Shown piece after piece: positions 3,767 through 6,322 of a stretch of DNA of 7,266 bases (its first letter is position 1; each line of letters opens with the position of its first letter). The notes under the pieces are model-generated. The model saw nothing but the letters and a program-made list of their open reading frames with translations, did not search any database and was not told the DNA's origin. The position numbers and the translations under genes were made by a program. The stretch is from Candidatus Muproteobacteria bacterium RIFCSPHIGHO2_01_FULL_65_16 (GTDB lineage Bacteria; Pseudomonadota; Gammaproteobacteria; Acidiferrobacterales; Sulfurifustaceae). The DNA lies in NCBI GenBank assembly GCA_001785175.1, contig MFSY01000032.1, positions 1 to 7,266 of the forward strand, read 5' to 3'.

Positions 3767-6322
3767 ATGGCCGAAAATAACCGCAAAATCCTGGTCACCA
3801 GCGCCCTGCCCTACGCCAACGGCCCGATCCACCTGGGGCATCTCGTCGAATACATCCAGACCGACATCTGGGTGCGGTTCCAGAAAATGCGCGGCCACAA
3901 GTGCTGGTACGTCTGCGCCGACGACACCCACGGCACGCCCATCATGCTGCGCGCGCAGCAGGAGGGCATAACGCCCGAGGCGCTCATCGCCCGCATGCAC
4001 GGGGAGCACGCGCGCGACTTCGCCGAGTTCGGGGTCATGTTCGACAACTACCACACCACCCACTCCGACGAGACCCGCGTGCTCGCCGAGCTGATCTACG
4101 AGCGCCTCAAGGAAGGCGGCCACATCGCCCGGCGCACCATCAAGCAGGCCTACGATCCCGTCAGGCAGATGTTCCTGCCGGACCGCTTCATCAAGGGCGA
4201 GTGCCCGCGCTGCGGCGCGCCCGACCAGTACGGCGACTCGTGCGAGGTCTGCGGCGCGACGTACTCACCGACCGAGCTGAAAAACGCCGTGTCGGCGCTC
4301 TCCGGGGCCAAGCCGGTCGAGAAGGAATCGGAGCACTATTTCTTCAAGCTCGGCGACTTCGAGGACACGCTGCGCGCCTGGCTCTTCCCAGACATCACGC
4401 AGCCGCGCCATGTGCAGCCGGAGGTGGCGAACAAGCTCGACGAGTGGTTCGCCGCGGGTTTGAAGGACTGGGACATCTCGCGCGACGCGCCCTACTTCGG
4501 CTTCGAGATCCCCGGCGCGCCGGGGAAGTTCTTCTACGTCTGGCTCGATGCGCCGATCGGCTACATGGGGAGCTTCAGAAATCTGTGTGAAAAGCGATCA
4601 GCTATCAGCGATCAGCTATCAGCTAAACCTGAATTCGAAGAGTATTGGGGGAAGGATTCCAAGGCCGAGCTGTATCACTTCATCGGCAAGGACATTCTCT
4701 ACTTTCACGCGCTGTTCTGGCCGGCGATGCTCGAGGGCGCGGGCTTCCGCAAGCCCACGGCGGTGTGGGCGCACGGCTTCCTCACCATCAACGGCCAGAA
4801 GATGTCGAAGTCGCGCGGGACCTTCATCACCGCGCGCACGTACCTGAATCATCTCAACCCCGAGTACCTGCGCTATTACTACGCGGCCAAGCTCGGGCCG
4901 CACGTGGAGGACATTGATCTCAATTTCGACGACTTCGTCGCGCGCGTGAACAGCGACATCGTCGGCAAGTACGTCAATATCGCCGCGCGCTCGGCCGGCT
5001 TCATCACGCAGAAGTTCGACGGCATGCTCGGCCCCAAGCTTGCGAATCCGGAGCTGGTCGAGGAGCTGCGGGCCAACGCGGAAACAATCGCCGCCCACTA
5101 CGAGAGGCGCGAGTACGGCGAGGCGATGCGCCTGGTGATGGCGCTCGCGGACAAGGTCAACGAGTACGTGGACAGCGAGAAGCCATGGGTTCTTGCCCGG
5201 GACCCGTCCCAGCAAAAGCGTCTGCACCAGGTGTGCACGACGAACCTGAACTTGTTCCGGCTGCTCACGCTGTACCTCAGGCCCGTACTGCCGGAGCTTG
5301 CGGCCGCAGCCGAGAAGTTCCTGAACATCCCGGCGCTCACCTGGGCCGACGCCGGGACAGTGCTGCTAAAGCACGCGATCAACCCTTATCAGCATCTAGC
5401 CAACCGCGTTGACCCGAAGCAAATCGCAGCGATGCTGGAGGAAGCCAAAGATAGTCTCCAATCCTCCCTCTCCCCGCGGGAGAGGGGCGGGGTGAGGGCC
5501 GGGGGTGATGGCCGCGGCGCGCACAAGGCCACGCCGCCGAAGGAATTGATCGAACTTGCGCGAAAGCTACGCACCCAGCAAACCGACGCGGAACAGTTGA
5601 TTTGGGGGCTCCTGCGCGAGCGCCGCGTTCACGACGCGAAATTCCGTCGCCAGCATCCCGTGGATGCAGGCGACAAACGGTTCGTGCTCGACTTCTACTG
5701 CCACGAGGCAAAACTCGCGGTGGAGCTCGACGGCGGGCAGCACGTTGAACGCGCGGAGAAGGACGCCGCGCGCAACGCCCTGCTCGAACAGCAGGGAATC
5801 ACCGTATTGCGGTTCTGGGACAACGATGTACTGAAGGAAACCCTAACCGTTCTGGAAACTATCTGGAATGCACTCGAGGAACGTCTACCAATGACACAGC
5901 CACCAACACCGTCCTCACCGCCAACGCAGCCCTCACCCCCAGCCCCTCTCCCGCAGGGAGAGGGGAGTAATATTAATATCGAACCGATCAAACCGGAGAT
6001 TTCGATAGACGAATTCGGCAAACTCGACCTGCGCGTCGCGCGCATCGTGAAGGCCGACTACATCGCCGGCGCGGATAAGCTGTTGCAACTCACGGTGGAC
6101 GTAGGCGAGGGAAAGCCGCGCAACATCTTCGCCGGCATCCGGCAGGCCTACGATCCGAAGGCGCTCGAAGGACGGCTCACCGTGGTGGTGGCGAATCTCG
6201 CGCCGCGCAAGATGAAGTTCGGCGTCTCCGAGGGCATGGTGCTCGCCGCCGGTCCGGGCGGGAAAGACCTTTGGATACTCTCGCCGGATTCCGGCGCCCA
6301 GCCGGGGATGCGGGTGAAATAG
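3767..6322 (+). CDS. metG: Methionine-tRNA ligase with an in-frame DUF559 nuclease-domain insert
   Basis: This class I synthetase charges tRNA-Met with methionine in the cytosol and is essential. Visible parts are the HIGH-type motif HLGH (22-25), the zinc knuckle CPRCG...CEVC (Cys146, 149, 159, 162), WLDAPIGYMGSF, KMSKS (345-349), the alpha-helical anticodon-binding domain (about 400-540) and a C-terminal Trbp111-like tRNA-binding domain (about 746-851; DLRVARIVKA, NLAPRKMKFG, EGMVLAAGPGG). The product is 851 residues against about 680 usual. Nearly all the excess is residues 566-742 in the linker: translated REP-like repeat, DUF559 domain, Pro-rich tail and second repeat. A smaller extra stretch (about 277-287) translates a 14-bp tandem repeat. 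No stop or frameshift interrupts it. No intein motifs are visible, so the insert is presumably left in the protein. The start is the ATG giving MAENNRKILVTSALPYANG. No good ribosome-binding site is seen, and a hairpin lies just upstream. Confidence 0.95.
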   Translation: MAENNRKILVTSALPYANGPIHLGHLVEYIQTDIWVRFQKMRGHKCWYVCADDTHGTPIMLRAQQEGITPEALIARMHGEHARDFAEFGVMFDNYHTTHSDETRVLAELIYERLKEGGHIARRTIKQAYDPVRQMFLPDRFIKGECPRCGAPDQYGDSCEVCGATYSPTELKNAVSALSGAKPVEKESEHYFFKLGDFEDTLRAWLFPDITQPRHVQPEVANKLDEWFAAGLKDWDISRDAPYFGFEIPGAPGKFFYVWLDAPIGYMGSFRNLCEKRSAISDQLSAKPEFEEYWGKDSKAELYHFIGKDILYFHALFWPAMLEGAGFRKPTAVWAHGFLTINGQKMSKSRGTFITARTYLNHLNPEYLRYYYAAKLGPHVEDIDLNFDDFVARVNSDIVGKYVNIAARSAGFITQKFDGMLGPKLANPELVEELRANAETIAAHYERREYGEAMRLVMALADKVNEYVDSEKPWVLARDPSQQKRLHQVCTTNLNLFRLLTLYLRPVLPELAAAAEKFLNIPALTWADAGTVLLKHAINPYQHLANRVDPKQIAAMLEEAKDSLQSSLSPRERGGVRAGGDGRGAHKATPPKELIELARKLRTQQTDAEQLIWGLLRERRVHDAKFRRQHPVDAGDKRFVLDFYCHEAKLAVELDGGQHVERAEKDAARNALLEQQGITVLRFWDNDVLKETLTVLETIWNALEERLPMTQPPTPSSPPTQPSPPAPLPQGEGSNINIEPIKPEISIDEFGKLDLRVARIVKADYIAGADKLLQLTVDVGEGKPRNIFAGIRQAYDPKALEGRLTVVVANLAPRKMKFGVSEGMVLAAGPGGKDLWILSPDSGAQPGMRVK
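4593..4624 (+). repeat. 14-bp tandem repeat inserted in frame within metG
   Basis: The unit AGCGATCAGCTATC occurs twice (4593-4606 and 4607-4620) and is followed by a partial third unit, AGCT. It translates as RSAISDQLSA, between NLCEK and EFEEYW, where E. coli MetRS is, from memory, about seven residues shorter. Such AGCTATCAG-type strings recur as intergenic repeats in many genomes. Here one has entered a surface loop of the catalytic domain without breaking the frame. Confidence 0.75.
5466..5500 (-). repeat. REP-like palindrome, left flank of the nuclease insert (reverse orientation)
   Basis: CCCTCTCCC pairs with GGGAGAGGG (9 bp, loop CGC), followed by the head GGGGTGAGGGC. Its reverse complement matches 5929-5964 at 31 of 32 core positions, counted by eye, with one 2-base gap. 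It is translated as SLSPRERGGVRA within MetG. Confidence 0.85.
5928..5965 (+). repeat. REP-like palindrome, right flank of the nuclease insert (forward orientation)
   Basis: The head GCCCTCACCCC (5929-5939) is followed by CCCCTCTCCC (5943-5952), which pairs perfectly over 10 bp with GGGAGAGGGG (5956-5965) around a GCA loop. It is translated as QPSPPAPLPQGEGS within the MetG linker. It is inverted relative to the copy at 5466-5500. Confidence 0.85.

Follow-up and report, generated by a model that had tools for sequence, protein, structure and literature searches.

The metG locus and its DUF559 domain

The window, that is, the whole 7,266-nucleotide stretch analyzed in this study (contig MFSY01000032.1, positions 1 to 7,266, from Candidatus Muproteobacteria bacterium RIFCSPHIGHO2_01_FULL_65_16), carries on its forward strand the metG gene, a single open frame of 851 codons that encodes methionyl-tRNA synthetase (MetRS) together with a DUF559 nuclease domain and a C-terminal tRNA_bind domain (Table 1). 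The initial annotation of this DNA had described an uninterrupted frame running from the anticodon-binding domain through DUF559 into the tRNA-binding domain, and this arrangement is confirmed by the open reading frame and the Pfam profiles. The DUF559 match (PF04480) scores 115 bits, the curated cut-off being 20.6, with an E-value of 1.9e-33. The interval assigned to the insert in that annotation, 5462-5985, does contain DUF559 but also spans two border repeats, which went unmentioned. No intein domain was found in the fusion protein among the 8 Pfam families and 25 of the 28 NCBIfam families listed, nor did Pfam give a Y1 transposase match, the resident domain being DUF559.

The acidic core proposed in the initial annotation (Asp642, Glu653, Asp655) was numbered correctly, and the conservation check that it recommended for the catalytic residues shows the core to be near-invariant: D642 and E653 are kept in 178/178 aligned DUF559 domains each, and D655 in 177/178. 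This alignment retains 178 of 183 domains (L040 gave no match, and L050, L074, L083, and L090 are short) and has some redundancy, as P0001 repeats the window protein and P0048 equals L053. E653, D655, H659, and D666, candidate counterparts of the EDxHD motif, are conserved in it. DUF559 shows dN/dS constraint along with the conserved active site. In an AlphaFold2 model of the fusion, with a mean predicted local distance difference test score (pLDDT) of 83.5, DUF559 is folded, and the stretches on both sides of it, residues 567-586 and 711-748, have pLDDT below 50. The nearest relatives of DUF559 in fold are 3hrl and the homing endonuclease I-Bth0305I, the latter being related in sequence too. 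Among the results of a profile search of solved structures were also weak hits (E 0.18-1.1) to toxin B-subunit chains, which are unrelated and were dismissed as chance.

Border repeats and their association with DUF559 genes

In metG, DUF559 is enclosed by an inverted pair of palindromes of the form CCCTCTCCC-nnn-GGGAGAGGG, with the tail GGGTGAGGG facing inward. In the incomplete 1.7-Mb genome, this palindrome pattern was matched 20 times on the forward and 19 times on the reverse strand, compared with 0 matches of the reversed pattern used as a control, and thus the border palindromes are not a product of chance. Flanking repeats, a feature that the initial annotation had tied to a mobile origin of the insert, are therefore both present around it and dispersed through the genome. 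Of the window's own borders, the right one can be read without a stop in all three sense frames, the left one in two.

Palindromes are enriched in genomes that bear DUF559. Among 60 relatives, at least 20 palindromes were found in 14 of the 16 genomes in which the DUF559 match is strong (E below 1e-10; these include G015, whose matches contain stops) and in 1 of the 44 others (Fisher p 1e-10); over the same 60 genomes, strong DUF559 predicts palindrome number with p 1.6e-9. In an even draw of genomes over the class, at least 10 palindromes were found in 28 of the 61 genomes with strong DUF559 and in 12 of the 188 without a match (p 1.9e-11); this test omits G000 and G005, and sets apart 23 genomes with weak matches, 2 of which reach 10 palindromes. 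Overall, DUF559 matches occur in 85/274 class genomes, and the GC-rich palindrome in 127/274. The reversed control of the wider palindrome pattern gave 2 matches in G003 and 1 in G054 among the 60 relatives, and at most 4 in any genome of the class draw. Ten of the 61 strong-DUF559 class genomes, G088 among them, have no palindrome of the window type. A DUF559 gene of G088 (L132) carries a quite different 24-nt inverted repeat (AACCAAAGGTATCTACACAAGTTG).

Inverted repeats beside DUF559 genes were also detected with a motif-free measure, the length of the longest stretch of one flank that is matched exactly, in inverted orientation, in the other. Such a match of at least 12 nt was found at 29 of 62 DUF559 loci and at 9 of 783 shifted controls, and one of at least 16 nt at 15/62 loci and 0/783 controls. 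The corresponding numbers for a second set, drawn from the wider class, are 13/26 versus 5/273 and 7/26 versus 2/273. The first set (62 of 63 loci counted, with L090 dropped for its short flank) was found via window-DUF559 patterns or as relatives and so is biased to the kin of this domain; it mixes MetRS- and MetH-internal cassettes with free-standing genes. The second (26 of 30 counted) leaves out L123, L128, and L145, which lack the motif, and L127, which is short. In the first set, controls shifted by 600 bases partly overlap a true flank, and the resulting bias runs against the claimed enrichment. First-set loci reach the Chloroflexi, Cyanobacteria, Bacteroidetes, and others, with repeat versions of their own as judged by eye, and border sequences vary from lineage to lineage.

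Close pairs of palindromes also occur with no gene between them. In 18 such doublets, picked non-randomly from the heads of lists, both GGGTGAGGG-like tails face inward in 14, one tail is present in 1, and the tails face outward in 3; in the DUF559 cassettes L158 and L166 they face inward, as in the 14 doublets. For the doublet set and the window together, the tail is present, one mismatch allowed, at 42/43 palindromes, and within 8 nt the motif GTAG (or its complement) was found at 3/43 and CGTC at 1/43.

Other host proteins and the history of the cassette in metG

A protein search that scored only residues 566-740 of the fusion, among proteins of approximately 468-1489 aa, gave 729 matches. 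MetRS accounts for 72 of the best 120 of these 729 long DUF559 proteins (one, P0001, is the window itself), including those of Ferriphaselus sp. R-1 (P0041) and Methyloversatilis sp. XJ19-13 (P0103); the other hosts among the best 120 include MetH, restriction-modification (R-M) proteins, HsdS, RecG, an HrpA-like helicase, a radical-SAM protein, and a hydantoinase. The host labels were assigned from Pfam domain lists, some of them by interpretation. In MetRS, as in 5 of the 9 non-MetRS hosts scanned, DUF559 is flanked by host domains to its left and right, which places it inside the gene. For instance, in the MetH proteins P0044 and P0087 it is located between the pterin-binding and B12-binding domains; in P0102 one side has a weak DEAD match alone, P0098 and P0099 have host domains on one side, and P0106 is ambiguous. 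A 1243-aa class I aminoacyl-tRNA synthetase (P0014) carries two DUF559 domains.

A recognized border peptide was found on the left in 72 of 76 MetRS rows, on the right in 72/76, and on both sides in 68/76; both peptides are present in 9/20 MetH rows and 33/49 rows of other hosts. The reading frame of the borders varies among the MetRS rows: three frames are used on the left (58, 9, and 5 rows; none recognized in 4) and three on the right (59, 11, and 2; none in 4), as one would expect of a DNA repeat but not of a peptide under selection as a linker. Since the same repeat-bordered unit occurs inside several unrelated proteins of other bacteria, the cassette is likely mobile. The initial annotation had suggested that a mobile nuclease gene entered metG; a nuclease insert with dispersed repeats is indeed present, but it is a repeat-bordered cassette found in other proteins too, not a lone gene. 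Chloroflexi MetH genes L054-L068 carry the cassette, several of them with more than one border repeat per side.

In a survey of 55 relatives with a listed MetRS core match, incomplete genomes included, the MetRS match runs through DUF559 only in G000 and G009, and a short linker was seen in the others wherever the linker sequence was listed; in the class draw, among the matches listed, G000 alone spans the full query. G009 (L003), which belongs to another genus of the same family, shares the fusion and has borders of the same kind. Empty sites, which the initial annotation had proposed to look for in relatives, thus exist as short linkers, and they are found in close occupied/empty pairs: P0004/G045 (94% identity in the core and 91% in the C-terminal domain), P0005/G007 (88% and 93%), and P0002/G008 (85% and 87%). 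A possible target duplication, MTQ / MITQ around the insert, was observed in P0004 at the protein level only. The right repeat alone is found in G007 and G045, at the same place in the metG linker; given this and the position of these genomes among occupied rows, gain of the cassette after a solo repeat and loss of the left border together with DUF559 both fit.

Within MetRS, DUF559 identity follows the C-terminal domain more than the core (Spearman 0.41 versus 0.22). For instance, P0019 and P0027 share 90% identity in DUF559, 87% in the C-terminal domain, and 56% in the core; the cassette therefore stays with the C-terminal half, with a break at its left border. P0019, P0025, and P0043 compared with P0027, P0030, P0038, and P0039 share 81-91% identity in DUF559 (pairs listed), 87-97% in the C-terminal domain, and 55-61% in the core, and this pattern represents recombination, with the cassette's left border as the breakpoint.

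This pattern and two further results count against homing in a simple form. Transfer of the cassette by itself from one metG to another was sought as pairs in which DUF559 exceeds both host parts by at least 12 points of identity, and 0 of 2211 pairs show this; a single origin of the MetRS copies was not rejected by the approximately unbiased (AU) test (p-AU 0.505; 88 rows, thinned by hand). Several independent entries into metG were considered, since over the DUF559 tree the MetRS label must change 4 times or more, but its starred branches force only 1 change (2 in the thinned tree); with so few forced changes and this AU result, several entries are not claimed. The MetRS-core tree (125 of 132 rows, with 7 partial proteins dropped) has 12 occupied/empty changes, 8 of them forced, which cannot be read as gains because the core recombines against the C-terminal half. 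Of the homing-endonuclease logic without an intein that had been suggested for this locus, the kinship to I-Bth0305I and the lack of an intein domain stand, whereas metG-to-metG homing is not supported.

Another dispersed repeat, made of ATCAGCT heptads, lies in frame within the MetRS catalytic domain (4591-4627), contradicting the initial view of the linker as the sole place where insertion is tolerated. This insert is present in the window genome alone among 30 aligned MetRS, and a 13-mer of the repeat recurs throughout that genome, with 68 matches on the forward and 67 on the reverse strand. The MetRS of G015 (L027) has a different short insert adjoining the same position. Two more palindromes of the border type, 2321-2341 and 2395-2415, are located within the stretch 2280-2415, in the gap between the dCTP-deaminase-like and Mrp/ApbC-like genes. 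One more short repeat (CTTCGCGTCTTTGCG...) forms an inverted pair, 2216-2244 / 6369-6397, with 86% complementarity; one copy is 3' of metG, and the other is within the start of the dCTP-deaminase-like frame. Reverse-strand frames 291-788 and 891-1403 have no Pfam match.

Table 1. Genes, domains, and repeats of the window
Feature	Position	Strand	Basis
dCTP-deaminase-like gene (DCD)	1648-2319	-	Pfam
Mrp/ApbC-like gene (NUBPL-type ParA with FeS_assembly_P)	2533-3618	-	Pfam
metG: MetRS with in-frame DUF559, 851 aa	3767-6322	+	ORF and Pfam/NCBIfam profiles
MetRS catalytic domain, tRNA-synt_1g, residues 8-409	3788-4993	+	Pfam
Anticodon-binding domain, Anticodon_3, residues 427-534	5045-5368	+	Pfam
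Stretch missing from the empty G007 allele: left border and DUF559, between host Leu codon (to 5458) and host-like ATG (5891)	5459-5890	+	DNA, by eye
Left border: palindrome CCCTCTCCCCGCGGGAGAGGG (5466-5486), then inward tail GCGGGGTGAGGGC	5466-5499	+	
DUF559 nuclease domain, residues 594-703; Q629, D642, E653, D655, H659 conserved	5546-5875	+	Pfam, alignment, models
Right border: inward tail CCCTCACCCCCAGC (plus-strand reading, from 5930), then palindrome CCCTCTCCCGCAGGGAGAGGG (5944-5964)	5930-5964	-	
C-terminal tRNA-binding domain, tRNA_bind, residues 755-848	6029-6310	+	Pfam
Downstream neighbor, receptor-like, with HAMP domain; ends after HAMP	6413-7258	-	Pfam

Proposed origin of the cassette and relation to known systems

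The structure of the cassette ends, their dispersal through the genome, the in-frame occupation of several hosts, the close occupied and empty metG alleles, and the retained active-site residues are all apparent in the sequences; mobility driven by the nuclease is what we infer. We consider it fairly probable that the repeat-bordered DUF559 cassette held by metG is a mobile element, its nuclease being predicted to drive copying into new sites. The cassette is best read as similar to repetitive extragenic palindromes (REPs) and their inverted doublets (REPINs), with a Vsr/EDxHD-type nuclease as the resident enzyme instead of the REP-associated tyrosine transposase (RAYT). Cleavage of the palindrome or its target by such a nuclease, of the Vsr or I-Bth0305I type, would be followed by repair that copies in the cassette, as with homing endonucleases and REPtrons; the gene-less doublets would then represent non-autonomous forms derived from the cassette. 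The metG insert may be tolerated through borders that can be read through and predicted disordered linkers around a folded domain, and the cassette would afterwards travel with the C-terminal half of the gene. For a broader proposal, that DUF559 proteins are the engines of widespread RAYT-independent REP/REPIN-like elements, each a cassette of palindromes, tails, and a homing-type nuclease with ends open to read-through, that plant catalytic nuclease domains in essential enzymes across several phyla and leave gene-less doublets, we see the chances as about even.

Four rival explanations were weighed and are considered less probable. The DUF559 genes could be passengers, carried between palindromes that are REPs moved by a RAYT (a Y1 transposase) or by another enzyme: Y1_Tnp matches occur in 43/60 relatives, within the family the genomes with Y1 are somewhat richer in palindromes (p 0.016), and there are precedents both for REPs located within genes and for RAYT REPtrons (PMC3733652). 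Over the 60 genomes, however, Y1 presence has no link with palindrome number (p 0.086), as opposed to the p 1.6e-9 of strong DUF559. Further, the incomplete genomes G007 and G010 have 76 and 29 palindromes without a Y1 match, G036 has 16 Y1 matches and zero palindromes, and GTAG is near just 3/43 palindromes. Movement of the palindromes by something else is thus the weaker idea, and the passenger explanation as a whole seems rather unlikely. A stable accessory domain, useful to MetRS or to the cell, with the repeats as flexible linkers or relics, is likewise unlikely, slightly more so: it accounts for the persistence of the cassette, to which the 72 MetRS among the best 120 of 729 matches, the acceptable single origin (p-AU 0.505), the closer tracking of the C-terminal domain than of the core (0.41 versus 0.22), the active-site and dN/dS constraint, and the predicted fold all conform, and not for the borders or the other hosts. 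The same cassette in unrelated proteins, its borders being DNA repeats read in three frames, and the restriction of the fusion to G000 and G009 among the 55 relatives, with close empty alleles, speak against such a domain.

We regard as quite improbable a free-standing Vsr-like nuclease of repair or defence, beside which REP-like repeats pile up and which read-through fuses to neighbors at times. The position of DUF559 between host domains, in MetRS and in 5/9 other hosts, and the shifted controls beside DUF559, mostly without inverted flanks, disagree with it. In its favor are the DUF559-bearing VsrA of Caulobacter, predicted to act in mismatch repair (PMC12907096), the many R-M proteins among the non-MetRS hosts in the best 120 of 729 matches, and a published SPOUT methyltransferase with DUF559 fused at its C-terminus (PMC1829167). 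Finally, the initial annotation had raised an assembly artefact, and the genome is an incomplete 135-contig assembly. The same fusion in G009, with its borders, and in many separate records, 72 MetRS among the best 120 of 729 included, shows that the insert is real and makes an assembly or binning artefact extremely improbable.

The interpretation that we favor, a REP-like cassette with a DUF559 nuclease, shares features with several known systems. REPtrons (REP/REPIN-RAYT systems) likewise combine many-copy short palindromes, inverted doublets, and one small DNA-cutting gene between inverted repeats (PMC3733652, PMC3116915, PMC8266576); REPs occur inside coding genes, like the repeats in metG (PMC3733652), and the gene-less doublets share the REPIN architecture (PMC3116915), although tag and enzyme differ. 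Unlike in REPtrons, the resident gene encodes a restriction-fold DUF559 nuclease and not an HUH Y1 transposase, GTAG and CGTC are near only 3/43 and 1/43 palindromes, and the cassettes stay open in frame within host proteins. The EDxHD homing endonuclease I-Bth0305I is related in sequence and fold, and its gene is also embedded in other genes; one DUF559 gene was assigned to the EDxHD family in a section on inteins of PMC9403480. In contrast to EDxHD homing endonucleases, the window protein has no intein domain, its borders are dispersed palindromes, and homing is putative.

Rickettsia palindromic elements are similar in that palindromic DNA has become an in-frame part of conserved protein genes; they are 105-146 bp long and, in the part of PMC2229807 covered, no nuclease domain is named in them, whereas the insert considered here includes a nuclease domain with active-site residues. 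Unlike the Vsr endonuclease of very-short-patch repair, DUF559 is here bordered by repeats. The SPOUT methyltransferase fusion also joins DUF559 to another enzyme, but it is terminal, and the covered text of PMC1829167 mentions no repeats, whereas metG has an internal insert with dispersed repeats. Segments with transposase and DUF559 are described as recombination hotspots in Legionella pneumophila. Thus the parts are already known: REPs with a resident enzyme, in-gene REPs, in-frame palindromes, homing nucleases, and terminal DUF559 fusion. In the literature covered, which takes in part of the DUF559 papers and few subscription papers, no report was found that links DUF559 with REP-like repeats or places it inside MetRS or MetH. 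The combination, a candidate REP-like cassette that would be run by a DUF559 nuclease and land inside essential proteins, was not found in that literature.

The proposed role gives DUF559, a common family of unknown function present in 85/274 class genomes, a testable function, and it offers an origin for the GC-rich palindrome of 127/274 class genomes. It would explain the odd MetRS-DUF559, MetH-DUF559, and HsdS-DUF559 fusions in databases, and the metG insert illustrates how an entire nuclease domain can become part of an essential protein, in frame and without splicing.

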